From assembly GCF_001542815.1 (NCBI RefSeq), contig NZ_CP006992.1:1679501-1743500 (forward strand): DNA of 64,000 nucleotides. The letters are read 5' to 3'. The notes under the pieces were generated by a model. The model did no database searches. It was not told the DNA's origin and saw nothing but the letters and a program-made list of their open reading frames with translations. Shown here one piece after another: positions 31,644-47,844 of this stretch; position 1 is the first letter of the stretch; each line of letters begins with the position of its first letter. The stretch comes from Methylobacterium sp. AMS5 (GTDB lineage Bacteria; Pseudomonadota; Alphaproteobacteria; Rhizobiales; Beijerinckiaceae). The position numbers and the translations under genes are program-made.

Positions 31644-32536
31644 TGCTCGCCCGAGCCTTCGGACGAGGATCATGACGGCGGCGGCGTAGAGGAAGGCCTG
31701 GGCCGAGGCGAGGGTCGCTTCCGGGTCCTTCCAGAGGCGTCGGTTGCGGCTGATCCATCCGAAGAAGCGTTCCACCACCCATCGGCGTGGATGCACGGCG
31801 AAGCCGACCTGATCCTTCGGTTTGCGCACGATGTCGATGGTGATGACGGTGGCGGTCGCGGGTCTGTCGCCGGCATAGCCTGCATCGGCGAAAGCTCTGA
31901 CGATGAACGGGAAGGTCCGCCGCGACAGGCGCAGCACCGGTCCAGCCCCATCGCGATCCTGAATGTCGGCGGTCTGCGGATCGAGCACGAGGGCGCGCCC
32001 GTCCGTGTCGACCAGGGCCTGACGCTTGCGGCCCTTGACCTTCTTTCCAGCGTCGTAGCCGCGCGGGCCGCCGCTCTCGGTGGTCTTCACGCTCTGGCTG
32101 TCGAGCACGGCCGCCGTCGGCGAGGCCTCGCGACCGGCCCGCTCCCGGTCGGCCATGACCAGGGCGTGGTTGATCCGCCCGAACAATCCCTCGTCCCGCC
32201 AGCGGCTGAAGTAGCCGAACGTCGTGCTGCGCGGAGGGAGATCCTTTGGGATCAACCGCCATGCGATGCCGCCGCGCAGCACGTAGAAGATCGCGTTCAG
32301 GACCTCCCGCATCGTCCAGACAGGCGGACGACCACGCGAGGCGGGCTCTGGCATCATGGGCGCGCACCGCCCATTCCGTATCCGTCAGGTCGGTTTCGTA
32401 TCGAAGGCGCGCACGGTTATGCTGCCGGCGAGTGGTCGGGGTCCACATGGCACGTCCAGATGAGGCTTCAGCACCCTTCTGGAATCACCGCCATTCCGGC
32501 CACTCAACCCCTGCCGGACGTTATCGGACGGGCTCT
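31621..32536 (-). mobile_element. IS5-family insertion sequence, about 916 bp
   Basis: The ends are AGAGTCCGTCCGATAA (31621-31636) and TTATCGGACGGGCTCT (32521-32536), a 16-bp inverted repeat with one mismatch. It encloses a single IS5-type transposase on the minus strand. The flanks (GACGCCTG on the left, TACCGAG on the right) show no target duplication. Each flank is the 5' part of a different gene pointing into the element, which indicates a post-insertion deletion or inversion rather than a simple insertion. Confidence 0.85.
31638..32448 (-). pseudogene. IS5-family transposase, frameshifted near the N-terminus
   Basis: Starts MWTPTTRRQHNRARLRYETD then LTDTEWAV, the canonical IS5-type N-terminus. 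The frame is then lost and resumes at MMPEPASRGRPPVWTMREVL. The join (near 32354-32365) looks like a 2-bp deletion; two extra bases would give TEWAVIAPMMPEP and a 270-aa protein. The DDE-type segments LDSQSVKTTESGG, ADAGYAGDRPAT and WVVERFFGWISRNRRLWKD remain. Programmed frameshifting occurs in some IS5 subgroups, but no A-rich slippery site is visible here and the position is too early, so inactivation is more likely. Confidence 0.8.
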
Positions 32537-32630
32537 TACCGAGATTGATCTCCTGGGCGATCGCTGGCCCCGCCATCGGGGCCACGAGCAGCCAAGCCAG
32601 CAAGGCGAATTGGCGTGAGATGCGGTCCAC
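32537..32630 (-). pseudogene. Secreted protein, 5' fragment cut by the IS5-type element
   Basis: GTG at 32630 follows AGGAGG with a seven-base spacer. The codons give VDRISRQFALLAWLLVAPMA then GPAIAQEINLGK, a clear Sec signal peptide with cleavage after AIA. Native sequence ends at 32537 where the IS inverted repeat starts, leaving about seven mature residues. It lies 148 bp downstream of the Cys-rich gene on the same strand, so it may be the cut-off last gene of the giant-protein operon. The family cannot be named from so few residues. Confidence 0.6.
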
Positions 32631-32777
32631 AGCGTTCCTCCTGTCTGGTCCAAACTCGCGGCTCGCGGGCGGGAGCGCCTTCGATCGGTTTTCCAACAGT
32701 ACGGCCCCCGAAGCAGGAGCCACTCCCCTCTCGATCGACGCCTTCGCCAAAGCAGAACCCGCTCCCTCCGAAAATGC

Positions 32778-33089
32778 TTAATTCAAACAATCTCCGACAT
32801 AGGTTGCACCGGGGCATTGACTGCTACTGAGACAGCAAAGGGAAGATCCTGAAATTTCATGGACTGATCCTGAGCAATGTATGTACTCGAATTTCGTGTC
32901 ACTGACCCTTCGGCATCCGGACTTGCCCTGGATGGGCCCGCCGTTGGTCGGGCGCGCGCACCAATTGGGACGATTGTCGGTGCCGAGATCGCCACAGGTT
33001 TGAATCGGTACAGTCGCGCCTTGTGCGTGGGCGGCGCCAATCGCAGCGAGGCAGAGGACGATGACGGCAAGCGTGCGGTAACCTGTCAT
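32778..33089 (-). CDS. Small secreted cysteine-rich protein
   Basis: A 103-aa protein with a Sec signal peptide (MTGYRTLAVIVLCLAAIGAA, cleavage after HAQ). The mature part of about 80 residues contains eight cysteines: TCGDL, WCARP, GCRR, HCSG, a CC pair, QCPG and DCLN. That suggests four disulfides in a compact periplasmic or extracellular domain. The ATG at 33089 has AGGAG eight bases upstream; the longer frame to 33191 overlaps the upstream giant gene and was rejected. It starts 53 bp after that gene's stop on the same strand, so it is probably in the operon. I recognise no family. The role could be binding, inhibition or a secreted cargo; none is shown. Confidence 0.7.
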   Translation of the reverse strand: MTGYRTLAVIVLCLAAIGAAHAQGATVPIQTCGDLGTDNRPNWCARPTNGGPIQGKSGCRRVSDTKFEYIHCSGSVHEISGSSLCCLSSSQCPGATYVGDCLN

Positions 33090-33141
33090 GGCGATCTCCT
33101 GTCGGATGTCGGGACGCGAGACTAGGCGGGGACGGGGATGC

Positions 33142-36100
33142 TCACGAAGCTCCTCGTCCCCGTTTGGCAGAATTGTCCGCCTCCGTTGCATGCGGACCTA
33201 TCTCGACGCGGGCGGCGAAGCGCGGGCCCGAGAGCACGAGTTGATCGTCGTTGGGGAAGTCGGCAGCGCCTTCGTCGACAGGCTCCTGCGCGTAGGTCGC
33301 CGGCCGCATCGCATCGATTTCCTCGACGAAGACCACATGCTCGACCTGCGCGTCGTCGAGCGGGTCCGTCGCGAGCCGGAACGTCCCCGTCCAGCACAGG
33401 GATCCCGCCGCCTGTCGATCAGGGTTGGGGAGGACGGCGCAGTCCGGCAGCGGCAGGTGGATGCCCGGAGGCGGGTCAGGGCATGGCTTGTCGGCGTCGA
33501 ACCGCGTCAGGTAGCAGTCGAGTTCGGCCTGGGTCCGGGGGATGAAGGTCCGCTCCGCCCAGGGGTGCCGCTTGCCGTTCCGGATGGTACCATCGGGATC
33601 CGCCAGCCGGGCCGGAGTCTCGACGCCGTCGGGACCGCGCCTGAGCACCGTCATCCGCATTAGCGGGCGCTGGCGCCACCATGAGAGGCGGGCTGCGTCG
33701 TGCCCGTCCGGCTCCGCCGCCGCGTGGAAGGAGCCCGGACCGGTGACCGTCACGGTGACGAGGCCGCGCTCTGTGCGGGACGCCGTAGCCACCACCCGGC
33801 GGCCGGGCATGATCTGCGCCCACTCCACCACGGGCTCCGAGACCCTCAGCACCCTCTCGGCCAGCGGTTGGTAGCGCACGAGGCCGAGGCGGACGAACGG
33901 CGCGGCCACTCCGAGGCCGCTCAACGCGACGTCCGCGTACCAGACCTCTCGGTCGGCATCGAAGCGGGGTCGATAGGTGAGCAGCGCCACCTCCATGGTG
34001 GTTCCGGTTCCGTCAGCGCCCGGCGTCCCGCCCGGGATCGGCATCGTAGCCCGCGGCACGTAGACGACCTCCGCATCGGCGCATGCGAGCGCGTCCCAAC
34101 GCTGCGCCTTCGGAGCGGACGGGCTGTCGATCGGCGCTGTGCCGAGATCCGCGAAGGCATCCGCGGGCATGAGCCAGCCCAGCGGCCCCGGCCCGCTCTT
34201 GATCGGGTCGCGCCCCCAGCGGGTCACGTAGACGCCGCCGGGACCGAGATCGGCGTCGGAGAAGCCCCGCATGTCGATGTCGCGCCGCTGCAAAGCGGCC
34301 AGGTAGTCCGCCCCATCGTAGTCGCGCACGACGGTATCGTGATCTGGGCCGATGCGGTCGCTCAGGATCTCAGGCGGCCAGAGCACCAAGCCGAGCCGCT
34401 CGTTCGCGCCCGAGGTGGCGCCCGGCCGGCGCCAGGTCACGCGCAGCATGGGCTCGCGCACGACCACGGCGGAGCCCGGCCCTCGCGACGCGGGTGTGAT
34501 CCGGGCCGAGGGCGCGACCGTCAGCGGAACGAGCTGGGCCGGCGCCTTAGTGGCCGGGAGAATCACCGTCTGCGCCGTGCCGGTGAGGACCGTCTTCGCG
34601 GCCTCAAGCATCCGGCCGCTCGCGCCGTTCCGGAAGGAGTTGGCGGTGCGCGATCCGACCCGCACGGTCAGCGAGAGGCGGCGCGCCCGCGTGTCGGCGA
34701 GTACGAAGGGGGTCGTCGCCCGCAGCGCCAGCCGGTCCACATTCCCCGCCTTGGCAGCCTGCTCCGCCTTGGCCGCCGCTCGCTGCAGTTCTAGGAGATC
34801 GGAGGACGGCCAGATCCCGGCCGGCGAATCGATGCGCAGCAGGACGGCCTGCTCGCGCTCGAAGGTGACCGAGTCGTCCGGCGCGACGGAGAATCCGTAC
34901 ACGTCGCGGGGGTCCTTGGGCGCGTTCCTGGCCGGGTCGATCGGCCACAGCCCGCGCGCGACTTGATCGAGGCTGCGCTTGCGCTCGTCCGGATCATCGA
35001 ATCGGCCGCCGACGAGGCTCTCACCCTCGGCGACGATCTCGACGAAGCCCGTGGTGGCCGGATCGAACGTGACCGTGCCGGCGATCAGGATCCCCGCCTC
35101 GCCCGGCTCAGGCGCGGGCGGCATCGCCTCCCCGCGCTCCAGCACGGCCGTTCGCGTCGCCGTGCTCAGGCGATGCACGGACAGAACGCCGGTGGGCACC
35201 GAAAGGGGCTGATCGACGGCGTGCACCGTCCGAATAACGATCGAGGCAGCGATCTCCGGCGCGCCCGCCGCCGTCGCCATGGCGTGGACGAATCCGCTGA
35301 CGGCGCGGATCGTCGCGCCCTCGAGCTGCCGCTGGCCGAGCGTCGTGACCGAGCCCGCGCGCACCTTCGCCTCCCTGTCAAGGGCTGCCCGGACCTCGCT
35401 CTCCCCGGCGCCGATCCGGTCGGCGATCGTCCGCGCCAAGTCCTGGCCCGGCTTGCAGGCCTCGCCACTCCCCGGATCGTAGCTGGCGAGGAGCGCCGCC
35501 GTCTCGACGACGTCGAAATGGCGGGCGAGGTTCGTCGCCGTGGGCAGGCACCAGATCACGACGTCGGCCACCGTTCCCGGCGGGAGCCTCACCTCGACCC
35601 GCGAGACGCCGACGCTCACGCCCGCCCGCGGGGTCCCACGCAGCAGGCGTCCGGCAGCGTCGAGGGTAAAGAGGGCAGGGCGCTTCGCGACGGACAACGC
35701 CGCGTCAGCATGCATCATCGTCCCGTCTTCCGCCTCAAGCCCGAGGACGGCGTCGCCCTTGGAGGAGGTCGTGGTCTTAGAGGAGACGGGCTGCGCCACG
35801 AACTCGATTGCGACCGGTCGGACATCCGGGGCGGTCACGCCCCGGGGACGGACTGGAACGACGAGCGGCCTGTCCGCTAGAGGCTTGCCTGCCTCATCCC
35901 GGACTTGGATGACGAGGTACTCCGCCATCGGGTCGGGATGATAGGGCAGCCGGCGCGGCCGGTCGACGGTCCGCGGCCGGAAGACGCTGTCGCCATTGGC
36001 CTTCGGCGAGAAGGGCTGCCCGAAGCCGACGCCGTCGTCGAGGGCCCCGGCCGTCCCTGCATCGAAGGTCCAGACCGGGAAGCCGCCGGCCCGGGCGTGA

Positions 36101-38724
36101 TCGAAATCGACGTCCCTCATCCCGTCGCGCGGTCCCATCCAGGACCCGACCCGCTCGTCCTGGAACGCGATGACGGCCTCGACGGCGGAAAGGGCCTGCT
36201 TGTGCTCGTCGGCGAACGTGGCCGAGACCCCCGGCGGAACGACGACCCGGACGGAGCGCGCATGGGGCGGATCAACCGCCATGGTCCCGTCGGACTGCCT
36301 GCGCGAGCGCAGGATCACCGACGTCCCCGTCTCCCGCAGCCCGTCCCGCACCCCGTCGAGGGGGCGCTCGAGCATCGGCTGGGGCGTCGAGACAAGCGGC
36401 GCCTCAATCCGCTCGTGGCGCAGGTGCCGGCGCGGCCCGGCCGTCTCGTTCGGGATCGCGAGGTGAGGCGCCACGTCATCTCCCAGGCCAGGACCGCCGC
36501 CACGCACGATGCCGCCAGCCAGCACGGCGCGCATGCGCATGTAATAGCCCGCACCGAGCACCAGCCGCGGAATCTGCCATGCCGCTCCGGCGGTCCATCC
36601 GGCTGGCGGCGCGAGCGAATAGGTCTGCGACAGGCGCAGCGGCGCGCAGCCTTCCCTCAGGGCGATCTCGTCCGCCTCGGGATCGATCCCCAGAGGAGCG
36701 CCGAGCCAATTGGCCACGGTCTCGTCGACGTAGGCCCGCTGCCCCTTGCCCTCCGGCTGGAGTCGCGCTGGCAGCACGAGGGTCGCGCCGTCATAGGCCG
36801 CCCGGTCGGCGGCCAGCGGGATCACCTGCGCGAGCAGGCGGCCGAACTCGGTGTCCCGGATCACCGGCTGGGTCACGTCCGATGGGTCGCCGAACGCAAT
36901 CGTGCGGCGGCACAAGTCGCGCCACTCGATCACGCCGCCTTGCTGGACGCCGACGTCGAGGCGGTAACCCGCCGTCAGGTCCGTGGCGTCAACGATCTCG
37001 ACCGCGTCCGGCGCGGTGCGCGAGAGGCTGCGCAGCAAGGCGCCGGTGGCGGCGCGTCGCCGGCCGTGATCAAGCAGCGCGAGCCCCGCCGTGCGCAGCG
37101 TCAGCAACTGGCGGCCCTTCGCATCCGGATCGGACAGGGCCGTCCGCCGGTGGTCCAGAGCCTGACTCAGATCGATCGACGTGACGTCGAAACGGTAGTC
37201 GGCCTTGCACGCCGTCGTCTCGGACGCGGCGAGCGGCAGGTAGCCGTCCACCAACTCGATGGCGCCGCCGATCAGCGCATTCCGATAATCCTCGGGCTTG
37301 GTCGCCTCGAGCGCCGCCTTGATCTCGTCCTGCGTGCACGCGAACACGTCGGGACCGCCTTCGTCCGAGAGGCGGGCCTTGGCGGCAGTCCAGACCCGCC
37401 GCTCCGCACCGAGCGCATCGATCACGCCGGCGAGGAACGCGAAGCGCACCCGGTTCGCAATACCCTCCCGCGTCGCGACGGCCTGGGAGGAGAGGACCAC
37501 CGCCTCGACCTCCTCGATCGGAATCAGCACGTCAACGACGAGATTGAACAGGCGGGCGAGGGACGGCTGCGACTGGATGCCGAGGAGGCGGGCGCGGGCC
37601 TGCTCGTCGATCGGGAGTTGCGGGCACCTGCCGGGCTGCTCCGGCGGCGGAGTCCCGTGCACCGTGGCACTGCCGTGGCGGTCGACTGCGTCGTCGACGG
37701 CCCTGGAGATCTCGTCAATGCGCCTCGTGGCCGCCCGCTCGATGATGCTCGCCGCGGGGCTCGGATCCCGGGGAGAGGCCTTACCGGCCGCGGCGCTGCG
37801 GGCCTGCTCTGCGGCTGCCGCGACGTCCGCGGCGAGCAGCCGCTCCTGCAGCGCCTGCGGCCCGGCCGGCGCGCCTGTCCCTTCGGCACTGGCGTGCCGG
37901 ACGAGGCTCGGCACCGGGCCGGCCCAGCTTGGCCAGCCTCTGCCCCAGTCGAGGGGCTCGAACGGCTCGTAGGCGAGGTTGACCGGCCGCGGGGCGGCGG
38001 CACCCGCCGATCTGGAGGATTTCAGCCGCTCGATCAGGCAGCGGGCGCGCTCCGTCGACAGGACAAGGGCGGCCGCGGCCCGGCCCATCGGGCTCACCGC
38101 GACGGTCTCTGCGGCCGTCCCGCCGGGCTGCATGCCCGACACGCCCGACGCGTCGGGCGGCCCGGCGGGCGGGTTGGCGGGCACCTTCAGCTCTTCGAGC
38201 AACTTCGTACCGCCCGGTTTGATGACCCGGGCAAGGGCCTCCCACTCCTTCGTCTTGTCCTCCGGCTTGTCCGCCGGGGCGAGGAGCTTGCGCCACAGCA
38301 TTCCGATCGCCGTGACGTCGGCCGCGCGCCGGGACTTCCAGCTCGCGATGTCCGGTGGGGAGCCACCCGGAAGGGCGCGGCGGTCGTGGTACATGGCCCG
38401 GATGGCGGGCACTCGCCGCGCCGCGCCGCCATTCGCGCCGGGAGCAGGATGCTCCCGGTCGACAGGCGCGACTATGACGGCGACCGGGCTCCCGCCAATC
38501 TCGGCAAAGTTGCCGATATCGGCGCCGGCGAGGTCGCGCTCGATCAGTTCTGGCCATTGCCGGAGATCGACCGTCCTGCCGATGTTCCGGCGGTCGGGCG
38601 CGACGGGCGAAAGGATCAGCGCCGCGCGCAGGAAGCGGTGCCGAGCCCGCCACACGATTCCGGCCGGCACGATCCGGACACCGACGCCGACGGGAATGGG
38701 GGGATGATTGGTGTCGTCGGGCAT
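33142..38724 (-). CDS. Giant protein of unknown function, 1,860 aa (second gene of the operon)
   Basis: I do not recognise this protein. It begins MPDDTNHPPIPVGVGVRIVP with a GAGGGG ribosome site and no obvious signal peptide, 8 bp after the preceding gene's stop. Residues of about 20-110 look beta-rich. About 170-560 are Ala/Arg-rich and helical (for example AAALVLSTERARCLIERLKS, TRRIDEISRAVDDAVDRHGS). The rest is mostly beta-strand with frequent aromatic and Val/Arg pairs, as in RVTWRRPGATSGANERLGLV and VWYADVALSGLGVAAPFVRL near the C-terminus. There are few cysteines, no transmembrane helix, no RTX or YD repeats and no catalytic motif I can name. Codon use matches the host-like high-GC style. 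It probably works with the other giant protein, since they are translationally close and share similar beta-rich segments. Confidence 0.75.
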   Translation of the reverse strand: MPDDTNHPPIPVGVGVRIVPAGIVWRARHRFLRAALILSPVAPDRRNIGRTVDLRQWPELIERDLAGADIGNFAEIGGSPVAVIVAPVDREHPAPGANGGAARRVPAIRAMYHDRRALPGGSPPDIASWKSRRAADVTAIGMLWRKLLAPADKPEDKTKEWEALARVIKPGGTKLLEELKVPANPPAGPPDASGVSGMQPGGTAAETVAVSPMGRAAAALVLSTERARCLIERLKSSRSAGAAAPRPVNLAYEPFEPLDWGRGWPSWAGPVPSLVRHASAEGTGAPAGPQALQERLLAADVAAAAEQARSAAAGKASPRDPSPAASIIERAATRRIDEISRAVDDAVDRHGSATVHGTPPPEQPGRCPQLPIDEQARARLLGIQSQPSLARLFNLVVDVLIPIEEVEAVVLSSQAVATREGIANRVRFAFLAGVIDALGAERRVWTAAKARLSDEGGPDVFACTQDEIKAALEATKPEDYRNALIGGAIELVDGYLPLAASETTACKADYRFDVTSIDLSQALDHRRTALSDPDAKGRQLLTLRTAGLALLDHGRRRAATGALLRSLSRTAPDAVEIVDATDLTAGYRLDVGVQQGGVIEWRDLCRRTIAFGDPSDVTQPVIRDTEFGRLLAQVIPLAADRAAYDGATLVLPARLQPEGKGQRAYVDETVANWLGAPLGIDPEADEIALREGCAPLRLSQTYSLAPPAGWTAGAAWQIPRLVLGAGYYMRMRAVLAGGIVRGGGPGLGDDVAPHLAIPNETAGPRRHLRHERIEAPLVSTPQPMLERPLDGVRDGLRETGTSVILRSRRQSDGTMAVDPPHARSVRVVVPPGVSATFADEHKQALSAVEAVIAFQDERVGSWMGPRDGMRDVDFDHARAGGFPVWTFDAGTAGALDDGVGFGQPFSPKANGDSVFRPRTVDRPRRLPYHPDPMAEYLVIQVRDEAGKPLADRPLVVPVRPRGVTAPDVRPVAIEFVAQPVSSKTTTSSKGDAVLGLEAEDGTMMHADAALSVAKRPALFTLDAAGRLLRGTPRAGVSVGVSRVEVRLPPGTVADVVIWCLPTATNLARHFDVVETAALLASYDPGSGEACKPGQDLARTIADRIGAGESEVRAALDREAKVRAGSVTTLGQRQLEGATIRAVSGFVHAMATAAGAPEIAASIVIRTVHAVDQPLSVPTGVLSVHRLSTATRTAVLERGEAMPPAPEPGEAGILIAGTVTFDPATTGFVEIVAEGESLVGGRFDDPDERKRSLDQVARGLWPIDPARNAPKDPRDVYGFSVAPDDSVTFEREQAVLLRIDSPAGIWPSSDLLELQRAAAKAEQAAKAGNVDRLALRATTPFVLADTRARRLSLTVRVGSRTANSFRNGASGRMLEAAKTVLTGTAQTVILPATKAPAQLVPLTVAPSARITPASRGPGSAVVVREPMLRVTWRRPGATSGANERLGLVLWPPEILSDRIGPDHDTVVRDYDGADYLAALQRRDIDMRGFSDADLGPGGVYVTRWGRDPIKSGPGPLGWLMPADAFADLGTAPIDSPSAPKAQRWDALACADAEVVYVPRATMPIPGGTPGADGTGTTMEVALLTYRPRFDADREVWYADVALSGLGVAAPFVRLGLVRYQPLAERVLRVSEPVVEWAQIMPGRRVVATASRTERGLVTVTVTGPGSFHAAAEPDGHDAARLSWWRQRPLMRMTVLRRGPDGVETPARLADPDGTIRNGKRHPWAERTFIPRTQAELDCYLTRFDADKPCPDPPPGIHLPLPDCAVLPNPDRQAAGSLCWTGTFRLATDPLDDAQVEHVVFVEEIDAMRPATYAQEPVDEGAADFPNDDQLVLSGPRFAARVEIGPHATEADNSAKRGRGAS

Positions 38725-38732
38725 GCCGCCCC

Positions 38733-41700
38733 TCAGATCGGTTGGCAGGGGGAGAGGCTGGCATCGAAGTAGTCGCGGTAGCCCGTCCAGTCGGCGCGCT
38801 GCGACCGCGAGGCGACCTTGAGGCGCGGCGGCCTCGGAGCTCGGCTTGCGGGCTTCTTGCCGGGCGTCATCGCGGCCCACTCGACGCGGACGAAGGGCGG
38901 CAGGAGGTCGGAGGGAAGCGAGGCCGTTCCCGTTCCCTGCTGCGAGCCCATCTTGGTGCCCTGGTCGCTGCTGACCCGGACCCTGAACTCGATGTCGTCG
39001 ATGCCGAGCGAGAACGAGAAGGTATAGGTCGCCTCGCCCTTGACCGGCCCTCCGCGCCCCTGCTGCTTCAGGCGCACGAAGAGCGAGGTCGAGAAGCCGA
39101 AGCAGGCGATGGAGGCGGAGCCCCGGGCCATGAACGTGCCGCCGAGTTCGGAATCCTCCGCGGTCGCGCCGATTCTGACGTAGAGCCCGAGCGTCACCTG
39201 CCCGTTGCCGCTCAAGGGGCCGAAGCCGAAGGCGAACACGCCGCCATAGTCGAACGAGCACTCGAACGACCTGAAGCCCGACTGCGTGTCCGTGACGAAG
39301 CTGAGATAGCCGCCGCCGCCGAAGATCGTCGAGGAGATCAGGAACGGCGCCTCCGGCCGGCCGATCGAGACCCGGAAGCGGGCCGGGCTGTTCTGGAACG
39401 GCAGCTCCGCGCCAGCGAACAGGACCACGTTCGAGAAGCTCAGGGTGCCGACGCCGAAGCTGCCGAGATTGACCCCGTAGGCCGCCTCGATCCCGGGCTC
39501 CTCCGCCAGGAGCCCGACCTTGAGCCCGCCCCCGCGCGGCGAGAGATAGGCCTGGAGGTCGTCCAGGAACTTCGCGTCCTTGCCGATCTCCGTCCGTCCG
39601 AACCGCACGTCGAAATCCGGTGACCGCCCCGTGCCCGCCGTGAAGGTGAGCCCACGGAAGCCGATAGTCACCGCCTCGAAGATCCCGGGGATCAGGTTGA
39701 TCTTGAACGGGCCGACCGAACCGGTGACCGTGACTTTCGCCGGTGTGGCCGCGTCGAGCAGGTCAACCTCGGCCAGGGTCTGGATCGCGAGCCTCGAGTC
39801 GCCCTCGGGCTTGAGGAAGGGGTTGCCGCCTTTCGGGAGCTCGTCGAGTTCGCCGCCAAGGTCATAGGACAGCCGGGCGCGGGTGGGGATGAGCTCGCGG
39901 ATGCGGGATTCGATCTCGTGACGGAATGCCCGCAGGTCGAGAGCGCGCACGAGGGCGACGCGCAGTTGCGACGCGTCGATCCGGCCGAAGCGCTCGACCA
40001 ACTCGACGAGCGCGGGGGCCGCCCAGATCTGGCCGAGCCCGTCGAGCGCCGCGAAGACCGCGACGGCCTTGCCGTCCTTGGCGGCGTCGCGGGCCTGCTT
40101 CACGAGATCCTGCTCCCGCGCGAGACGATCCTGCTTCGCGCCGCCGACCGTATCGTGGACGACGAAGAGGTCGTCCACGCCGAGCTGCGTCTCGAGGCTG
40201 CGCAGGAGGGTGTCGACGAGCGGGGTCTCGGCCCGAACCTTCGCGACCGCGGCCGCGATCTCGGTCCGGCGCACCGTCACGGCCGCGTAGAACGCGACGA
40301 GGCCGTCGAGCGGCGCCTGAAGGGCCGTGACGATCCCCTTGAGCGCGTCTTGGAGCCGGGCCTCACCCTGCGCCGCCAGACGCGTTAGCAGGTCGAGCGC
40401 GGCCTGCTCGATGACGGCGAGGACCGTCCTGCGAAGGCTCTCGATCCGTGCGGCGACGCCGTCGAGGACGGTCTTCGCCGCCTGCGCGGCATCTGCGAGC
40501 GCGGCGGGCTGAGCCGTGCGGATCCGGTCGGCGGCGGCGTCTAGCCTGTTGGCGAGATCCTTGAGATCGTCCTGTCCGGTTCTGGCGAGCGGGATCGCCT
40601 CGCCGATCTGGCCGGCCGCTGCCTTTAGCTCCCCGGCGACGGCGGGCAACTGCGGCTCCAGAGCGTCCCCCGCCTCCTTCAGGGCGGCCTGGACCCCCGC
40701 GAGCGCATCCGGCGCCTTAACTGCCGTCACGGCCGCGACGGTGCGCACGCCTCCGGCCGCCAAGTCCAGCAGCGCCGCGATCGCCTCCCCGGCCTTCCGC
40801 TTGGCAGTCTGGTCAGCGGCGGCGAGGAGCATGCTTTCGAGAGCCTCGCGCGCCTGCGCGGCCTGCCGGCCGAACGCCATGACGGCGAGCACGAGAAGCT
40901 TCTGTGCGCCTGCGAGGCGACGCATCGCGGCGGGAAGGTCGGCGCCCGAGACGACGCAGCCCGTCTGACCGCCCGCCAGCAGGGCCGAGAGCTCACGACG
41001 GACATCGGCTAAGCCGGCGAGCGCGTCCGCGAGCGCGCCTGCTGTAGCGAAGAGTGCGTCCCGGGCACGCTTTATTGCCTCCTGATCCGAACCGGACGCC
41101 GCCTGCTCCGCCTCCTGCAGCGTCGTCAACGCAGCGAGGGCGGCGCTGCTGAACGTCGCGCTGGCCGTGACCGTGCAGGTGCCGGACCCAGTCGAGGTCT
41201 TCAGGCGCACGATGCAGCCGGCAAGCCTGTCAATGTCGTCCGCGCTCGGGAGGACGGCGTCGGCCGCTCGCGACAGGCCTTGCCGGAGGGCGGCACACGC
41301 AGCGCCGATCTCGCCGATCCGCGCGGACTCGTCGAGCTTGGCGAGGAGCGTCGCCACGGGAGGCAGGAAAGCTCCTAATTCCCGAAGGAAGGCGGCGGGA
41401 TCCTTGAGGAGGGCGTCCCCCGAGAGCATCCGCGCCAACTCTTCGATGCGTGCGGGCGCGGCGCTCAGGGTCCCGGCCCCGAGAGCCTGGAGCAGGGGCG
41501 CGACGGCGGGGGTGATGAACCGCTCCTCGAGCCTGCCCCGGAGCGTCTCTAGCTCCTTGTCTAGCGCGCCGCCGGGGTCGAAGCCGCTGAGGGCGTCCTT
41601 GATCGGCCCGATGGCCGCGGGCAGCTGCGTGTCGGCCAGCCGTGTGACGAGGCGCTTGAGCGCATCTTTCAGATCGGGATCGTCGTCGAGGTCCTTAGCG

Positions 41701-44000
41701 GCGGCCTCGAGCTTCGTCGTGATTGACACCGGCAGCGCAGTGAGACGCGCGCCCAGCGTGTCGACCGGCACGGTGCAGGGATTCGCTACGGCGCCGACGC
41801 ACAGCGCCTCCGCCAAAGCGCCGCGTACGGCCAAGTCCACCTGCACGGACACCTTCGCGCGCAGCGACTCCGCCTCCGCCGGGATCGGCACGGTGACGAG
41901 GAAGCGGCGCACCGCGACGCCCGCCTCCGCGACGAGGGGGGCGACGAGACGCCCCAGCAGCAGGCCGGGGAGCGACTTCAGGTCTTTCGTCAGGCCGCGC
42001 ACCAGGGCCAGGACGGCGTCGAACCGGCTCTTCAGCTCGCGGATGATGCCGAGCTGCTGGTCGGACATTGACGCGAGCGGATCTTGCGCGATCGCGTCGA
42101 GGGTCCGGATCAGCCGCTGCCCGGCCGCCTGCGTGGCGGCGAGGTTCGCCATGAACTCCGCGTCGCTCGTGCCCGCGTTCAGGCACTTCTCGAGACTCCC
42201 GCGCAGCGCCCCGATCGCCTCGCCGATCTGCGGGAAGGCCTTGCCGAGGCTGGCCGTCGTCGATCCGTCTCCGGCCTGCCGCGCGGCGATCTCGGCCCAT
42301 TTGGCCTCAACCGCCGTAATTATGTCCTTGAGCGGCTGGATCACCGTGTCGCGCAGGAGCGCACGCGCCTCCCGCGCGCCCTCCCGCAGCGTCCGCGAGC
42401 CGTAATCCACCACCTCGCGCAGCTCGGGATGCCGGTTTGCGATCTGGCCGACCGCGACCTTCAGCAGGTCCGCTAGGGACACGAGCCCGAGCAGGCGGGC
42501 GTCGTCAGGAAGGATCGCCTTCAACGGATTCCCGGCATCGAACGGGCTCTTGCCGTCGTTGGCGGTGAGGTAGGAGGTAGCGACGGGACGGGCCTCGGGG
42601 GCGGTTTCTCCGGGCGGGAGCGGAGCTGCTCTCGGCGGCGCGGCGTTGACGCTGAGAGGCCCGTAGCGCCGCGAGAGCGCGACGATGTTCATGTTGGGAT
42701 GGGCGACGCCGCCGGCGAGATTGCCCCGGCCCGCGAATTCCAGCTTGTGGACCTCGTCCCGCACGATCAGGAATGCTTCCGGGACGTTCTTCGTCTCACC
42801 GCCCGCAATCGGGTTGTCCTCCCCGAAGCCGGCGCGGACATAGAACGGATCGTAAGCGACCGTCCGCCAGATCGGGCCGCTCCCGGACAGCCGCTCGGCC
42901 TGGGTGAGGCGGCAGGACGCCGCCGCGACGAGCGGATAGAAGGGCGGCTGGTCCCGCCCGATCATCAGGGGGCTGCGGACGTAGTGGTCGTTCTGCGGCG
43001 TGTCCGGATCGCCGGTCCGCGGCGCCGGGCTCTCGCGCCCCTCGGCCTTCACGCTCCACCAAGCGGTCTCGTAGGTGGTGTCGCCGGGAGTGGTTTCGGG
43101 GGCCATGCGCACGGGCTGGCCGCGGCGGTCGAGGTAGCGGACCGGCCCGGTCCCGGCCTTGGCCCCGTCCTCCGGCACCCGGTCGTTGTAGTACCTCACC
43201 ACAGCCCCAACGGTCGCCGGGTCGTTGGCGGCCTGGTTGTCGACGAACAGGAGTGGCAGGCGCAGCGGCACGGCCTCGCCGGCGACCCGCATCTCGAACC
43301 AGACCTCGGCGCCGTCGCGGCCAGCGATCCGGGGCCAGAAGCAGAGGCCGGTGGCGCCGGGCCCGGTGAAGGTCAGCCGCCCGCTAGCCAGGACGTCCTC
43401 GACCTCGAGCGGCCCGCCGGGGCAGTCCGCGGTCCCTCCTAACTCCGCGGCGGGATCCACGAGGTCCGGCGTCGTGAGCGTGAGGATCTCGAGCTCCTGG
43501 CAGGACCAGCGCCGGCTGCGGTTGGGCTGGCCTTCGGCGGGATAGGTCTTGACCGGGTCTGCGACCTTCAGGAACTTGCGCTGGATCAGGACCGCCGTCG
43601 GCGCGCCGTCGCCCGCATCGACGATCAGCCTCTCGGTGAGCTTGACGAGGCTCGCGGTGTGGCCAAGCGGGAACAGGAAGCCCTTATAGACCACCTCGAC
43701 GACGACGTCGCGGCCGAGCACCGTGCGCTGGCGCCAGCGCTCGACCGAGAAGGCATCGAACAGGTTGCCCGCCTTCGTGCGCGCGGCGGCCGGTGGGACG
43801 AAGGTCGTGTCGAGGTTGATCGACCCGCCCAGCGCGCTGAGCGACAGCTCCGTTACCGACAGCGGTCGCGGCTGGTAGATCGCAGTCCAGTCCCGCAGGT
43901 CCTCTCCTGCGAGCTGCCCGTCCCCGGTGGTGCGCTCGATGTCGCGAAGGCGGAAGCCCGGCGGCGGCTCGATCTGGCTGCCCTTCGTATCGAGGCCCCC
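38733..44000 (-). CDS. Giant protein of unknown function, downstream part (about 1,755 aa), frame-shifted from its N-terminal half
   Basis: This frame continues the protein encoded at 47428-44003 and has no good start codon of its own. If one G were added to the G7 tract at 43996-44002, both would join as one 2,898-aa protein. Order in this part: a conserved-looking beta segment (VERWRQRTVLGRDVVVEVVY then KGFLFPLGHTASLVKLTER); more beta-rich sequence to about 42,500; an Ala/Leu-rich helical region of about 870 residues (42,490 to 39,880, e.g. REGAREARALLRDTVIQPLK); then about 270 residues rich in Gly, Phe and Ser with alternating strands (FGGGGYLSFVTDTQSGFRSF, FAFGFGPLSGNGQVTLGLYV), reminiscent of a beta-barrel or lipid-binding beta structure. 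The C-terminus ends DYFDASLSPCQPI. No named family is recognised. Confidence 0.7.
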   Translation of the reverse strand, partial: GGLDTKGSQIEPPPGFRLRDIERTTGDGQLAGEDLRDWTAIYQPRPLSVTELSLSALGGSINLDTTFVPPAAARTKAGNLFDAFSVERWRQRTVLGRDVVVEVVYKGFLFPLGHTASLVKLTERLIVDAGDGAPTAVLIQRKFLKVADPVKTYPAEGQPNRSRRWSCQELEILTLTTPDLVDPAAELGGTADCPGGPLEVEDVLASGRLTFTGPGATGLCFWPRIAGRDGAEVWFEMRVAGEAVPLRLPLLFVDNQAANDPATVGAVVRYYNDRVPEDGAKAGTGPVRYLDRRGQPVRMAPETTPGDTTYETAWWSVKAEGRESPAPRTGDPDTPQNDHYVRSPLMIGRDQPPFYPLVAAASCRLTQAERLSGSGPIWRTVAYDPFYVRAGFGEDNPIAGGETKNVPEAFLIVRDEVHKLEFAGRGNLAGGVAHPNMNIVALSRRYGPLSVNAAPPRAAPLPPGETAPEARPVATSYLTANDGKSPFDAGNPLKAILPDDARLLGLVSLADLLKVAVGQIANRHPELREVVDYGSRTLREGAREARALLRDTVIQPLKDIITAVEAKWAEIAARQAGDGSTTASLGKAFPQIGEAIGALRGSLEKCLNAGTSDAEFMANLAATQAAGQRLIRTLDAIAQDPLASMSDQQLGIIRELKSRFDAVLALVRGLTKDLKSLPGLLLGRLVAPLVAEAGVAVRRFLVTVPIPAEAESLRAKVSVQVDLAVRGALAEALCVGAVANPCTVPVDTLGARLTALPVSITTKLEAAAKDLDDDPDLKDALKRLVTRLADTQLPAAIGPIKDALSGFDPGGALDKELETLRGRLEERFITPAVAPLLQALGAGTLSAAPARIEELARMLSGDALLKDPAAFLRELGAFLPPVATLLAKLDESARIGEIGAACAALRQGLSRAADAVLPSADDIDRLAGCIVRLKTSTGSGTCTVTASATFSSAALAALTTLQEAEQAASGSDQEAIKRARDALFATAGALADALAGLADVRRELSALLAGGQTGCVVSGADLPAAMRRLAGAQKLLVLAVMAFGRQAAQAREALESMLLAAADQTAKRKAGEAIAALLDLAAGGVRTVAAVTAVKAPDALAGVQAALKEAGDALEPQLPAVAGELKAAAGQIGEAIPLARTGQDDLKDLANRLDAAADRIRTAQPAALADAAQAAKTVLDGVAARIESLRRTVLAVIEQAALDLLTRLAAQGEARLQDALKGIVTALQAPLDGLVAFYAAVTVRRTEIAAAVAKVRAETPLVDTLLRSLETQLGVDDLFVVHDTVGGAKQDRLAREQDLVKQARDAAKDGKAVAVFAALDGLGQIWAAPALVELVERFGRIDASQLRVALVRALDLRAFRHEIESRIRELIPTRARLSYDLGGELDELPKGGNPFLKPEGDSRLAIQTLAEVDLLDAATPAKVTVTGSVGPFKINLIPGIFEAVTIGFRGLTFTAGTGRSPDFDVRFGRTEIGKDAKFLDDLQAYLSPRGGGLKVGLLAEEPGIEAAYGVNLGSFGVGTLSFSNVVLFAGAELPFQNSPARFRVSIGRPEAPFLISSTIFGGGGYLSFVTDTQSGFRSFECSFDYGGVFAFGFGPLSGNGQVTLGLYVRIGATAEDSELGGTFMARGSASIACFGFSTSLFVRLKQQGRGGPVKGEATYTFSFSLGIDDIEFRVRVSSDQGTKMGSQQGTGTASLPSDLLPPFVRVEWAAMTPGKKPASRAPRPPRLKVASRSQRADWTGYRDYFDASLSPCQPI

Positions 44001-47000
44001 CCGGCCTTCCAGCGCCCGGCGACGGGCAGGCCGTGCACCGAACTCAGGGCCACGACCTCGTGCCGGTCGTAGGCGTCGAGGCCCGTGAGGAAGCGTTGCC
44101 CCTCGAGTTCGGCAAGGTCGCTGCGCGTCCCGAGCCCGCGCCGGATCGCCCAAGGCTTCCACGGCCCGCGCGGGGGCGAGCCTGGTCCGTCCGCCGACAG
44201 CAGGGCCGCCGGCCGGAAGTCGGGTGACCAGACGGCGCGCACGCCCGCGTCTTCGCCTACGTCGACGAGGCTCGCCGTCCAGAGCGGCCGGACCTCCGCG
44301 CCAGCGGCCCCGGCCGGCGCAATTGCGCGCTGGACGGCGGCAGACGGCGTCTTCCAGGTCGCCGTCTGGGCCGGCGACAGGTGCAGGCGGGCGGGAAGCT
44401 CGAGGGCGGTCTCGAACGGGCCCGGCTCGTGGCGAGACGCCTCGTAGACCTCGGCGAGCCGCTCGGTCGTGCTCACGCGGCTGACGTCGCGGTTCTCTCG
44501 CCCCAGATCCTTGGCGTCGGCGGCACGTGTGGGCCGGTCGGCGCGGGTGAAGCCCTGGAAGGTCAGGATCGCGGCGTCGTCGGCAAGAACCTCGCGCTGC
44601 CAGCGCGGCGGCAGGCGGCCGGAGAGGGGCAGCGCCATGAGCCGTTCCGCCCGGCGCACCACCGCCATGTCCATGCTGGCCCAGTTGGTCAGCCCCTCGA
44701 GCGAGAACGGGATCGCTCCTCCCGCCCGCTCGCCCTCGTGGTCGTCGGGATTGATGCGGAATACGATCCGGCTCGGGCCCGACAGACGTGCCTCGGCGGG
44801 AAGCGGGATCCGCCCCGCGGGGGAGATCGAGTCCCTGACGAACTGCAGCAAGTCCGGACCTAGCAGAACCTTGTTCCGCGTGAGCCACTCGCGACCGCGA
44901 TAATCGGCTGCGGCTGGATCCGGCTTCTGCGCCGTGTCGCCCGCCACCAGCGCCTCGTAGCGCCGGTGATAGGCGTGACGGAAGGCGACGAAGCCGGCGT
45001 CACGACGGTCCTTCTCGCGCAGGATCGCATCCTGGGCGGGCAGGTCCAAGTCCCGATCGGGCTTGCACAGCTCCTCGGGCTTGGAGAGTCCCGCCTCTCT
45101 GAGCACTCGCTGGCGCACGTCCCGCGGCAGCGTCACATCCGGCCAGAGCGGCTCGGGCTCAACCGGGGGCCTGACGAGATCGCGCCAGATCGCCTCGGCG
45201 AGCCGCCGCGCATCCGGATCGAGGAAGGCGGGCCCGGCATAGAGCCGTTGTTCCTTGGGCAGTGTCCGGGCGGCGGCCTCCTCGGCGAACCGCTCGATCA
45301 GCGTCTTGACGGCTGCCCGCTCGCCGGAGACGTCATTGAGGGCCTGAAGGGCCTTACGAGCCTCGATGCGCTGGGAGGCCAGCGTCCCGTCCACCGGGAG
45401 GCCGCGCCACCGCTTCGGCCGGCCAAGGAGCGCCAAGTGAGCTGCGAACGCTTCCGCGTCCTTGGCCGGCACGAGTTCCGGCAACGTGACAGGCTCGGGG
45501 AGTTGGCGGAAGATCGCCTGCTCCAAGACGTGCTGCGGTGGGAACTCCACGGCGAGCAGCGGCCGCCCATCCCGGGACGGGATCGGTCGCTCGCCGGCAT
45601 CGGGCTGCGCCGCCCGGGCCGGCGAGCGACCGCCGCGTGGGGCGAGGCGCGCCTGCGGCCCGCCGGCGCCGCGCCAGGGCAGAGTCAGCACGAGGTCGGC
45701 GAACCGGAACTTGAGCGCGAGCAGGTCGTCGGGCCGGATGACCGTGAGGCGGGCGCGGTCGAGGGCGAGCTCGCCGTGGCTCGGGACCGGACCCGGCAGG
45801 CCGAGAGGTACGACCGCGTCCGCCGAGCCCGGATGCGGCGTTTCGACGAGCGGGATGTGGAAGAACGCTTCCGCGGCGTCGAAGTCGAGCCGGGAGGTGT
45901 GCCGCTGCCGGCGAGGGCTGCCGGGGTCGGCCTCGTCGTGCCGCTCGGGCAGCGGGATCGCCGCATGGGTCAGGGCGAGGCGCGCCGAGAAGCGCCGCAG
46001 CGTGCGGTCGCCCCCCGTATCGGCGGTGACGATCTCGATCGGCTCGACCCGGCCTGGGGAGCCCGGCCGCGGGCTGAGCGGCGGCAGGGCCGCGACGTCG
46101 TAGACGCCAAGGCTCGTCGCGACCCGGTGGTCCTCCGCAACGGGGGCGAAGCGGAGCCGGGTTCTGACCGGCCGGCCCGGCTCGCCCTGGCGCACGATCT
46201 CCATGTCAGCGACCTCGAAGGCCGCGTCCGTGCGCTCGGTCCCGGCCTCACGGGTGACCACCGCCACCGTCCCGATCCGGCCCTTCCGGTTCGCCTGGAG
46301 GATGCAGCCGGCGACGGTCCTCTCCGGATCGCCCCAGTGGCGCAGCCTCGCCTGCAACTCTGCCGCGAGACGCGGTGGAACGGCGTCGTCGAAGCGCACG
46401 CGCACCGCTACCGAGTTGCCGGCGCCGTCGCGGCTGCCGGCGACAAAGCCCAGGACCGGGGCGCGCCCCTGCGGGCGCTCCAGGATCGGAAACGCATCCT
46501 CGGCCTTGATGCCGCCGACGGTCCCGTAGAGGCCGAGCGTGGTGCCCCTTCCGGCCCCCGGCGGCGCTTCCGCGTCGAAGAGAAGCGTGTCCCTCATGGC
46601 ACCGGTGGCCCTGTCCTCGCCCTCTCGGAACAGGCGCCGCACGTCGAGCCGACGGAAGGTCAGGAAGACGTGCAGGATATAAAACTCGCCCGTCGCCCGG
46701 TCTTTCGGTTCCAGGCGCCAGGTGAAGTCCCTGTTGAGTTGCAGGCGGAGCGACCCCCTTCCCTCGATGCGCGGTCCGAACAGGCCTTTGAGCACGGGGC
46801 CGGCGCGGCGCTCGGGGATCTCGGCCAGAAGTCCCGTCAGAGCGGGCGCGTTGGGGTCGTGGGCGAGAAAGGTATTGAGGAGCATCCTCCCGAACGTCAG
46901 GTCATCGCGCCCATCCCACCACCCCGTCGATGAAAGGCGGATTGTCCAGGGCGCCTGCGGCGTCGGGCGCTCGATGACAAACGTCATCGTGAACGTCCGT

Positions 47001-47428
47001 CCCCTCGGGTCGGGCAGCGAAGCGCTGGTGACGGTGAGGGTCCACCGGCCCGGGACGTAGCGGAGTTCCTGGATGTCGCCGCCGTTGCGCGGGACCCTGA
47101 TCCCGGCTTCCTCGGCCTTGCCGGTCAGCTCGATCCGCGGGATGCTCGCGCGGTCGATCGAGAAGGCCGCGCTGTCACCGAAGTCGCGGGTCCGCCAGGT
47201 CAGGTGAACTCGCTCGTTAGCATCGAGTAGAGCCACGGCGTCGCGGCGCTCGGCATCCAGATAGGCGAGTCGGTAATCTGGGGAGGCCTCCTCCTGCGCC
47301 GCTCCGATCGCGCTCGTGGCGACCAAGGAGGCCGCGCCGCCGAGGACTGTGCGCCTCGTGACGCGCGCAGTTGTTGATCGAGCGCACCCAGGCTTCGGCC
47401 TTGTCTTGCCTCCTCCGTCTGCCGTCAT
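43853..47428 (-). CDS. Giant Tat-exported protein of unknown function, N-terminal part (first gene of the operon)
   Basis: The first 1,142 or so residues of the giant protein. ARVTRRTVLGGAASLVATSA is a good twin-arginine signal (TRRTVLG) with a hydrophobic core, cleavage probably near GAAQ, so folded export by Tat is likely. The body is beta-rich (FTMTFVIERPTPQAPWTIRL, GSLRLQLNRDFTWRLEPKDR), with a helical stretch near residues 610-850 (EAFAAHLALLGRPKRW, RRYEALVAGDTAQ). At the G7 tract (43996-44002) the reading frame is lost after GLPVAGRWKAG, and the last 48 or so codons are Arg/Ser-rich out-of-frame sequence. The ATG at 47428 has a G-rich ribosome site; a GTG at 47443 is possible. Not assignable to a family by eye. 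Confidence 0.7.
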   Translation of the reverse strand: MTADGGGKTRPKPGCARSTTARVTRRTVLGGAASLVATSAIGAAQEEASPDYRLAYLDAERRDAVALLDANERVHLTWRTRDFGDSAAFSIDRASIPRIELTGKAEEAGIRVPRNGGDIQELRYVPGRWTLTVTSASLPDPRGRTFTMTFVIERPTPQAPWTIRLSSTGWWDGRDDLTFGRMLLNTFLAHDPNAPALTGLLAEIPERRAGPVLKGLFGPRIEGRGSLRLQLNRDFTWRLEPKDRATGEFYILHVFLTFRRLDVRRLFREGEDRATGAMRDTLLFDAEAPPGAGRGTTLGLYGTVGGIKAEDAFPILERPQGRAPVLGFVAGSRDGAGNSVAVRVRFDDAVPPRLAAELQARLRHWGDPERTVAGCILQANRKGRIGTVAVVTREAGTERTDAAFEVADMEIVRQGEPGRPVRTRLRFAPVAEDHRVATSLGVYDVAALPPLSPRPGSPGRVEPIEIVTADTGGDRTLRRFSARLALTHAAIPLPERHDEADPGSPRRQRHTSRLDFDAAEAFFHIPLVETPHPGSADAVVPLGLPGPVPSHGELALDRARLTVIRPDDLLALKFRFADLVLTLPWRGAGGPQARLAPRGGRSPARAAQPDAGERPIPSRDGRPLLAVEFPPQHVLEQAIFRQLPEPVTLPELVPAKDAEAFAAHLALLGRPKRWRGLPVDGTLASQRIEARKALQALNDVSGERAAVKTLIERFAEEAAARTLPKEQRLYAGPAFLDPDARRLAEAIWRDLVRPPVEPEPLWPDVTLPRDVRQRVLREAGLSKPEELCKPDRDLDLPAQDAILREKDRRDAGFVAFRHAYHRRYEALVAGDTAQKPDPAAADYRGREWLTRNKVLLGPDLLQFVRDSISPAGRIPLPAEARLSGPSRIVFRINPDDHEGERAGGAIPFSLEGLTNWASMDMAVVRRAERLMALPLSGRLPPRWQREVLADDAAILTFQGFTRADRPTRAADAKDLGRENRDVSRVSTTERLAEVYEASRHEPGPFETALELPARLHLSPAQTATWKTPSAAVQRAIAPAGAAGAEVRPLWTASLVDVGEDAGVRAVWSPDFRPAALLSADGPGSPPRGPWKPWAIRRGLGTRSDLAELEGQRFLTGLDAYDRHEVVALSSVHGLPVAGRWKAGGASIRRAARSSRRRASAFATSSAPPGTGSSQERTCGTGLRSTSRDRCR
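43996..44002. repeat. C7/G7 homopolymer tract at the frame break of the giant gene
   Basis: Seven C on the plus strand (seven G in the coding sense). Reading the coding strand with eight G restores GRWKAGGGLDTKGSQIEPPP and one continuous 2,898-aa frame. This is the typical position and type of a phase-variable tract, though an assembly or sequencing length error would look the same. Confidence 0.75.
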
Positions 47429-47844
47429 CGCCGCCCCCACCACCTCTTGGACGACGACTCAGCCGAGGAATCCAAGATGATTAAACTCAAGATTACAAAT
47501 CATTCTCCGCTTGGCTACGGAATTTTTGGGTGATGCAGCCAAGAGAGGATGCAACGAGCAGCCGGACCGTCGGGGGTGGGCGTAACGCGAACATCTGCTA
47601 CAATTGGATGTTGCGACAGATCGAAACGATCACGCACGGACAAAATATGTCATTAATTAAAATCAATACTCGTTAAGGCATTATCTGCAAGTCACCCCGA
47701 AATGGCGGAACAGCGACATCAAATAGGGGTTGGGGATTCTATCCGAGCATAGGCCCTGATTTTTTGAGCGAGGAGAGCTTAGGATCGAACGCCGGATGGA
47801 GCGAGGCGGCTGGCGAAGATAGCCGTGGCCGCTGTCGCTCGACG
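47429..47844. other. AT-rich upstream region of the giant-protein operon
   Basis: About 415 bp with markedly lower GC than the rest of the window, notably ATTAATTAAAATCAATACTC near 47650-47670. No gene is supported. It is the only non-coding stretch upstream of the giant operon and so should hold its promoter; I could not place convincing -35/-10 elements at consensus spacing. Confidence 0.5.

Follow-up and report, generated by a model that had tools for sequence, protein, structure and literature searches.

In Tat hitch-hiker export, a redox subunit without a leader crosses together with a partner that bears the twin-arginine motif, and in polymorphic effector systems conserved large parts lie beside variable effector genes. 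Tat cargo is described in passages of PMC6708511 as "up to 150 kDa". Here we analysed a window of 64,000 nucleotides from Methylobacterium sp. AMS5 that holds two giant genes, A and B. Our results show that A/B is a two-gene unit of unrelated bacteria, in which the slot behind B varies.

Layout and decay of the operon in the window

The initial annotation had described a single-strand operon composed of a giant with a Tat leader, a second giant, an 8-Cys protein and a truncated secreted stub. This layout was borne out on the minus strand, and the region reads as follows:

43990..47443, minus strand: giant A, upstream frame, with the twin-arginine leader (TRRTVLGGAASLVATSAIGAA) and the N-terminal third; boundary at ~43990
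38733..44030, minus strand: giant A, downstream frame, with the conserved core, the helical middle and the beta-rich C-terminal domain; boundary at ~44030
33142..38724, minus strand: giant B, 1,860 aa, 8 bp behind A and by eye without a leader
32778..33089, minus strand: predicted small secreted protein with 8 Cys, 103 aa
32537..32630, minus strand: stub of a further secreted gene, N-terminal and signal-peptide-like, the rest truncated by an insertion sequence (IS)
31621..32536, minus strand: insertion sequence with inverted-repeat ends AGAGYCCGTCCGATAA
48118..49801, minus strand: broken tyrosine-recombinase (phage integrase) remnants, upstream of the giant A/B operon
30166-30879: IS110-type transposase, a neighbour of the giant operon

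The GC content by codon position of A and B peaks at 0.87-0.89 in one position, which supports that both are coding sequences. The strong coding bias claimed initially is seen in the two giants, but the values of the 8-Cys gene are flat (0.54/0.58/0.58).

As assembled, giant A carries one frame break and its pieces lie in two frames. The upstream piece corresponds to residues 1-1110 of the database protein P0013 (99.91%, gapless) and the downstream piece to residues 1110-2864 of the same protein (99.94%, gapless), while M. podarium has an open relative of 2,917 aa. Since P0013 spans both pieces and the M. podarium relative is open, intact copies of A exist. At the other end of the operon the secreted stub (32630-32537) runs directly into the IS, which starts at 32536. 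The inverted repeats of this element agree at 15/16 bases, the 4 bases flanking it differ between the two sides, and its far end sits inside the start of a truncated plus-strand gene, which we take to be aldehyde-dehydrogenase-like. This position of the far end suggests that a rearrangement took away the 3' end of the operon. Judging from the frame break in A and the IS-cut 3' end, the copy in the window is probably inactive.

The integrase remnants match PF00589 (E 2.6e-4) and PF13356 (E 1e-4), both under the curated cut-off. Together with the plasmid-borne copies described below, they make delivery of the operon by a genomic island plausible, as had been proposed, but the comparison of synteny with five genomes of the same genus showed no empty site, and the flanks are not unique.

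Spread of the A/B pair and family searches

The search for A-like proteins returned 1,260 relatives, and our set of A loci (n=81) includes three near-duplicate pairs (L004/L011, L027/L028 and L033/L034). B lies directly downstream of A on the same strand in 71 of the 74 loci with enough room to be testable, across many phyla, and both genes occur in the identical 5 of 398 genomes. For 54 loci, the correlation between A and B distances is r=0.957, and permutations reached at most 0.18; shared ancestry contributes to the correlation. The host range of the pair goes from Chloroflexota to Streptomyces and includes conjugative plasmids, and A and B together span roughly 2,400 to 5,500 residues across the family. 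Among 72,556 plasmid records A was found in 15 and B in 7, and plasmid pC of the soil symbiont Sinorhizobium meliloti LMB1 carries an intact pair; in the family, presence is limited to 1 of 40. B had no match among 50,697 phage records, and one locus was matched in viral contigs. One of the five genomes with both genes, G308, is apparently that of locus L010.

Clustering of recurring neighbours brought out no constant gene beyond A and B, and the most widespread cluster covers 6 loci. Hence, the neighbourhood check suggested initially did return giants that co-occur, but of the three-gene unit anticipated across unrelated hosts only A and B are conserved and the third gene is not fixed.

The initial annotation could name no family for either giant, and our searches agree: neither the pieces of A nor B fit a family of Pfam, NCBIfam, PHROGs or PADLOC. 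There was no match above the curated cut-off in Pfam or NCBIfam, where RTX, Rhs, Tc toxin and NRPS/PKS domains were not found, and in PHROGs the 8-Cys protein and both giants were without a match at E<=0.1, A being searched in pieces. Distant A members gave sub-threshold Pfam matches only, and 25 B proteins gave one match in all, to an unrelated family (E 0.05). We rejected as noise Baculo_PEP_C for the helical middle of A (E 7.3e-5; 23.3 bits against a cut-off of 38), DUF5650 for B (E 0.12), the weak NCBIfam matches in A and the only two PADLOC matches of the helical middle (E 0.02-0.05). When compared with PDB sequences, the A profile gave 44 matches at E<=1 (best 2.4e-5), all of them within profile positions 927-1199 of the helical middle and belonging to coiled coils, helical bundles and viral fusion proteins; with the B profile there was no match. 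A fold search of BFVD with the A model returned nothing at E<=0.001, no tail or baseplate proteins are annotated in six A/B plasmid stretches of 30-34 kb, and a literature search with narrow terms found no description of the pair or its domains. The conserved pair is thus nameless in every family library used here.

The beta-rich C-terminal domain of A could suggest an envelope device for the transport of lipids or polymers, in which its amphipathic sheet would form a membrane barrel or a lipid groove. We consider this improbable: Foldseek TM-scores by query length are ~0.1 for the model of this domain and its pLDDT is mostly 55-86, a Tat substrate would need to insert the barrel after folding, and the domain is retained in a Streptomyces plasmid homolog, whose host has no outer membrane.

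The Tat leader and the slot behind B

In the window, A shows a twin-arginine motif followed by a hydrophobic stretch near its N-terminus. Across loci, a Tat motif with a hydrophobic core is present in 48/77 A, 1/69 B and 40/679 other ORFs; among database proteins, the motif is found in 23/29 long A, 47/120 short A and 0/8 B. It is absent from 29/77 A loci, a few of which are fragments, and from 73/120 short A proteins. A TatA-like ORF lies within ~1.2 kb of A in 7/81 loci, two of the seven being near-identical, and the four such ORFs that we tested all match PF02416. The masses of two A proteins (P0013, 306 kDa; P0014, 315 kDa) fall outside the 150 kDa range given for Tat substrates in the passage of PMC6708511 cited above. 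The export proposed initially is supported by the leader of A, and the product may be a surface or periplasmic assembly, but many short-form A proteins have no recognisable leader.

We then compared the first ORF behind B with distant ORFs, defining long and short forms by a locus span over or under 12 kb (L076, with a doubled A, was counted as long). A same-strand ORF of at least 90 aa within 300 bp of B was present in 24/34 long and 19/39 short loci, three members of near-duplicate pairs being left out. By a home-made rule for secretion, and with ORFs from a simple script that may include false ones, this ORF looks secreted in 15/24 long-form loci compared with 22/172 distant ORFs (Fisher p=3.8e-7); short-form loci showed no enrichment (4/19 and 30/187).

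Pfam searches with hand-picked downstream proteins identified a lysozyme, C70, M10, M35 (twice) and YkuD, and 4 of the 10 had no match; a trypsin and a lysozyme-M23 protein were also found near A/B. Lysozyme, protease and L,D-transpeptidase genes therefore recur near the pair, the M35 and lysozyme types in different hosts, although many loci, including that of the window, have no recognised enzyme behind B, and by eye the lysozyme of L004 and the transpeptidase of L037 have no clear leader. A lysozyme and an L,D-transpeptidase of different hosts have a short segment in common (E 2.5e-4 and 3.9e-4), whose query was excised after the likeness had been noticed and, used alone, had no plasmid match. 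A protein of L109 that by eye resembled a zinc phospholipase C was not counted, since its VWA7_N match is sub-threshold and a PDB match is absent. Secreted hydrolases are common in genomes. Our broad Pfam comparison of downstream and distant ORFs (63/88 downstream and 63/88 sampled control ORFs, out of 265) settles nothing either way: ordinary families abound among the downstream ORFs and the controls include a lytic transglycosylase, with at least 25 families in each list.

The 8-Cys protein has nine Cys in total, eight of them after the leader. It had no Pfam match, a best PDB match of E 0.28 and none in plasmids. A relative is present in just one other fetched A/B locus, L040 of Leisingera (48% identity, 8/8 mature Cys kept), where its ORF lies 21 bp behind that of a putative trypsin-like protease. 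This arrangement, seen in L040 only, could be that of an effector with an adjacent immunity protein, and the 8-Cys protein may be an inhibitor- or immunity-like accessory.

These neighbours can be read without a weapon, if A/B works outside the cytoplasm as a scaffold or harness that serves degradative enzymes of the host itself, in nutrient scavenging, cell-wall remodelling or biofilm. Proteases, phospholipases and lysozymes are equally typical exoenzymes, and in the model the core of B consists of Ig/FN3-like domains strung in chains, which are common in scaffolds. We find this unlikely, given that the patchy presence (5/398 genomes; 1/40 in the family) and plasmid carriage fit an accessory trait better than a housekeeping role in nutrition and that simple exoenzymes would not be expected to have an inhibitor-like partner such as the one beside the L040 protease.

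Using the L037 transpeptidase as query, we came upon a homolog that lies 43 bp behind another pair of giants, X/Y, which is located on rhizobial and beta-proteobacterial plasmids; in B. japonicum the adjacent giants are annotated with 2,787 and 2,704 aa. The match to L037 is confined to the last 120 residues, outside the short segment mentioned above. M23, M12 or M48 genes lie 1-3 kb downstream of X/Y in 3 of 6 other plasmids. X/Y matched no Pfam family. It resembles A/B in its two adjacent giants with hydrolase or transpeptidase genes behind them, but the sequences of the two pairs have no significant similarity.

It could be argued that the enzymes are there by chance, as in any gene-rich island, and that A/B has an unrelated extracytoplasmic role, which the lack of enrichment in short forms, the many loci without a recognised enzyme and the indecisive Pfam comparison would fit. 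This seems very improbable when set against the long-form enrichment, the recurrence of M35 and lysozyme types across different hosts and of the 8-Cys protein in L040, and the second giant pair found by a cargo-led search. A defence of the envelope against phage or plasmid entry, with a periplasmic trap whose enzymes attack incoming particles, would account for the dpdE-H genes annotated near A/B in A. vitis, for an N-6 methylase with WYL and an HsdR-like gene near A/B plasmid loci, and for AbiEii and Avs1c around X/Y. Plasmids and islands often carry such genes, this adjacency was seen without a control, and PADLOC yielded only the two noise-level matches, so that we regard defence as quite improbable.

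Proposed role and comparison with known systems

Our preferred reading, held tentatively and with less than even confidence, is that A/B is a Tat-exported heterocomplex with swappable hydrolases used against competing bacteria. A (~306 kDa) and B (~198 kDa) would be obligate halves of one large heterocomplex. Since the Tat leader is on A and B has none, B may fold onto A in the cytoplasm and cross as a Tat hitch-hiker, and in some hosts an extra TatA would come from a gene next to the pair. Once outside the cytoplasm, the complex may provide small enzymes with a scaffold or with a particle for their delivery. These enzymes (lysozyme, M23, M35, M10, C70, trypsin-like, L,D-transpeptidase) would be encoded mostly in the exchangeable slot behind B and sometimes accompanied by a Cys-rich inhibitor-like partner; antagonism toward competing bacteria would be the likeliest use. 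It is from sequence that we infer the physical A-B complex, the hitch-hiking, the delivery and the antagonism. A bolder version, which we find rather doubtful, would be a new class of delivery machine: an A/B particle of about half a megadalton, built in the cytoplasm and leaving it in one piece by way of a specialised Tat pore that has a TatA of its own, bringing swappable enzymes that degrade cell walls or proteins against other bacteria, with a common cargo pool used by two or more unrelated pairs of giants, A/B and X/Y among them. If A and B truly cross Tat jointly, the size range described for folded-protein export needs revision, and if the downstream enzymes are cargo, the loci would provide a new delivery architecture and a ready catalogue of effectors and possible inhibitors.

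Among folds, a bacterial alpha-2-macroglobulin ranks first for the core of B (Foldseek E 2.5e-7), which is likewise modelled with beta-sandwich domains in chains, with TM-scores near 0.1. The CxEQ thioester motif of alpha-2-macroglobulin is found in 0/25, 0/31 and 0/8 aligned B rows, and some bacterial alpha-2-macroglobulins lack it as well. A/B resembles the heterodimeric redox enzymes exported by Tat in that one subunit has the leader and its adjacent partner does not, but no redox domain was matched in Pfam or NCBIfam, and the pair totals ~500 kDa compared with the "up to 150 kDa" in that passage of PMC6708511. With T6SS, extracellular contractile injection systems and toxin complexes, A/B shares large conserved parts, variable lysozyme, protease and transpeptidase genes and a possible inhibitor partner; however, the family searches with the A pieces and B turned up none of the tail, baseplate, VgrG, Rhs or Tc families of these delivery systems, and export of A/B appears to be through Tat.

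The giant operon and its relatives

We confirmed that the minus-strand operon proposed in the initial annotation at window 47443-32537 is present as described. Its components, as read from the open reading frames and followed by the adjoining insertion sequence (IS), are:

Giant A, minus strand: split over two reading frames, with the junction near 44 kb
Giant B, minus strand: 1,860 residues, starting 8 bp behind A
8-Cys protein gene, 32778-33089, minus strand: secreted, 103 aa, 8 mature cysteines, behind B
Truncated secreted frame, minus strand: 94 bp, behind the 8-Cys gene, entering the IS
Insertion sequence, 32536-31621, minus strand: ends agree at 15/16 bases

The two pieces of A matched consecutive parts of a single 2,864-aa database protein without gaps (99.91% and 99.94%), and an open 2,917-aa relative occurs in Methylorubrum podarium. 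GC by codon position marked A and B as coding; unlike them, the 8-Cys gene has a flat profile, as if this sequence had been acquired separately. Beyond the IS the start of a plus-strand gene is likewise cut, so that the element connects two truncated genes, and the four bases flanking it differ between its two sides, a sign of IS-mediated rearrangement. Since genes are cut on both sides, such a rearrangement probably removed the operon's 3′ end. The window copy of A/B is probably dead; intact relatives are numerous.

The claim that neither giant belongs to a nameable family also held, as neither the two pieces of A nor B nor the 8-Cys protein had a match at curated cut-offs in Pfam, NCBIfam, PHROGs or PADLOC. 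Among 25 B proteins, Pfam gave one match, at chance level. A sequence search of the PDB returned helical matches in the middle of A (best 2.4e-5) and none with B.

To follow the distribution of A we scanned one genome per species; 92 stretches were confirmed and the best 80 of these retained, giving 75 A loci. Their hosts include Alpha- and Betaproteobacteria, Desulforhopalus, Geobacter, Chloroflexota, Ignavibacteria, Chlorobiota, Armatimonadetes, Acidobacteria and Cyanobium, and a large share of them are metagenome bins, whose names may be wrong. Annotated plasmids of Agrobacterium, Sinorhizobium, Streptomyces, Ruegeria, Rhizobium and Diaphorobacter contributed six more loci, for a total of 81. 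At least 3 kb behind A was available in 74 of them, and B lay there on the same strand in 71 (the misses being L047, L052 and L069), which bears out the expected co-occurrence of both giants. Within the phylum, A was found in 5/398 genomes and B in the same five, our own genome counted; the five other genomes of the genus listed in that scan had neither, and among 40 genomes of the family B was found in our own only. A-A and B-B protein distances correlated at r=0.957 (54 loci), which demonstrates co-inheritance rather than contact. The pairing of A and B is firm.

At least 1,260 A-like proteins were found among 7,998 candidates scored. Proteobacteria and Occallatibacter have a long form (~3,000 + 1,900 aa), other Proteobacteria and the remaining phyla a short one (A ~1,100-1,700, B ~1,250-1,600), and some pairs are of intermediate size. 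A from a Cyanobium record (L073) is 76% identical to that of a bin named Geobacter (L056), which means either recent transfer or a mis-binned contig.

Enzymes beside the giant pairs

The ORF next behind B was secreted-looking in 15/24 long-form loci, compared with 22/172 distant ORFs from the same loci (p=3.8e-7); short-form loci showed no difference (4/19 vs 30/187). Pfam matched all but four of ten hand-picked downstream proteins, and two of six further picked neighbours, the other four being without match:

L004, behind B: Phage_lysozyme
L006, behind B: Peptidase_C70
L009, behind B: Matrixin
L010, behind B: Aspzincin_M35
L080, about 2 kb behind B: Aspzincin_M35
L037 (short-span locus), behind B: YkuD
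L080, upstream of A: zinc phospholipase C
L081, about 0.8 kb behind B: patatin

B is followed by a trypsin-like and a lysozyme-M23 protein in one proteobacterial genome, and another has a reprolysin-like gene upstream of A. These enzymes were chosen by eye and therefore illustrate how varied the neighbours are, not how frequent. A wider Pfam comparison decides nothing: among the 25 families listed for each side, downstream ORFs gave M35 twice and C70 once amid many ordinary families, and control ORFs one lytic transglycosylase. The lysozyme (L004:23708-24484) and the transpeptidase (L037:12432-13085), from different hosts, share a short FFPxGIxKI-type segment (E 2.5e-4 / 3.9e-4), a possible docking tag judging from these two sequences. 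Overall, long forms make a good case for a cargo link, which is unproven in short forms.

The Cys-rich protein had been proposed as a third co-occurring gene. This stood for one locus, Leisingera L040, which has its own A and B and encodes the sole clear relative among the fetched loci (48% identity, all 8 mature cysteines retained). There a secreted-looking protein with a trypsin-type LTAAHC motif (by eye) and a DegQ-like match (E 8.4e-4) is encoded 21 bp ahead of the relative; both ORFs are upstream of A and run against the direction of A and B. The natural reading is that the 8-Cys protein is a putative inhibitor or immunity protein, and the enzyme may have been encoded by the fourth gene that the window has lost.

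A plasmid search with the L037 transpeptidase returned one record, from Bradyrhizobium japonicum, whose enzyme is 51.7% identical across the last 120 residues of L037 and lies 43 bp behind two adjoining giants of 2,787 and 2,704 aa:

X/Y giant pair, L115:6004-22481, B. japonicum plasmid

Pfam assigned no family to X or Y, and their similarity to A or B was not significant. X was matched in 11 plasmid records; in six further ones that we read (L116-L121) it is annotated at 3,577-4,041 aa, and three of the six have genes for M23, M12 or M48 peptidases at 1-3 kb downstream, the other three no obvious peptidase gene there. Thus 4/7 of the rhizobial and beta-proteobacterial X/Y plasmids read have peptidase or L,D-transpeptidase genes downstream, which hints that giant pairs with exchangeable enzymes are a more general arrangement. 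Separately, defence genes (dpd, an N-6 methylase with WYL, HsdR-like, AbiEii and Avs1c) are annotated near giant pairs on plasmids L077, L112, L113, L119 and L120, the loci from which this list was drawn.

Predicted structures and export

Fold comparison was mainly of A's last domain and the B core, and the structural matches were too weak for family assignment. The AlphaFold model for a short-form A of 1,173 aa (72 rows, pLDDT 75) ends in a large sheet with amphipathic strands that aligns to outer-membrane barrels; a membrane barrel is doubtful because a Streptomyces homolog retains this domain. The B core model (1,060 residues, 31 rows, pLDDT 80) aligns to chains of Ig/FN3-like domains. We propose that A/B is an exported heterocomplex working outside the cytoplasm with swappable enzymes, most likely directed against other bacteria; rival readings see it as an exoenzyme scaffold, a defence of the envelope or a transport device.

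Window A starts with a clear twin-arginine leader. Defining the Tat signal as RRx[FLVIM] followed by a hydrophobic stretch without charge, we found it at the loci in 48/77 A, 1/69 B and 40/679 other ORFs, and among database proteins in 23/29 long A, 47/120 short A and 0/8 B. Short A proteins without it are chiefly beta-proteobacterial and rhizobial; the Tat leader of long-form A is strongly supported. Judged by eye, window B has no Sec leader, and hitch-hiking on A would be its simplest route across. In 7/81 loci (two of the seven near-identical) the pair has a TatA-like ORF no more than about 1.2 kb away, and all four tested against Pfam were PF02416; our own genome has two PF02416 matches, both distant from the operon. 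A review gives 150 kDa as the upper size of Tat cargo (PMC6708511), whereas the computed masses are 198 kDa for B and about 306 kDa for A alone.
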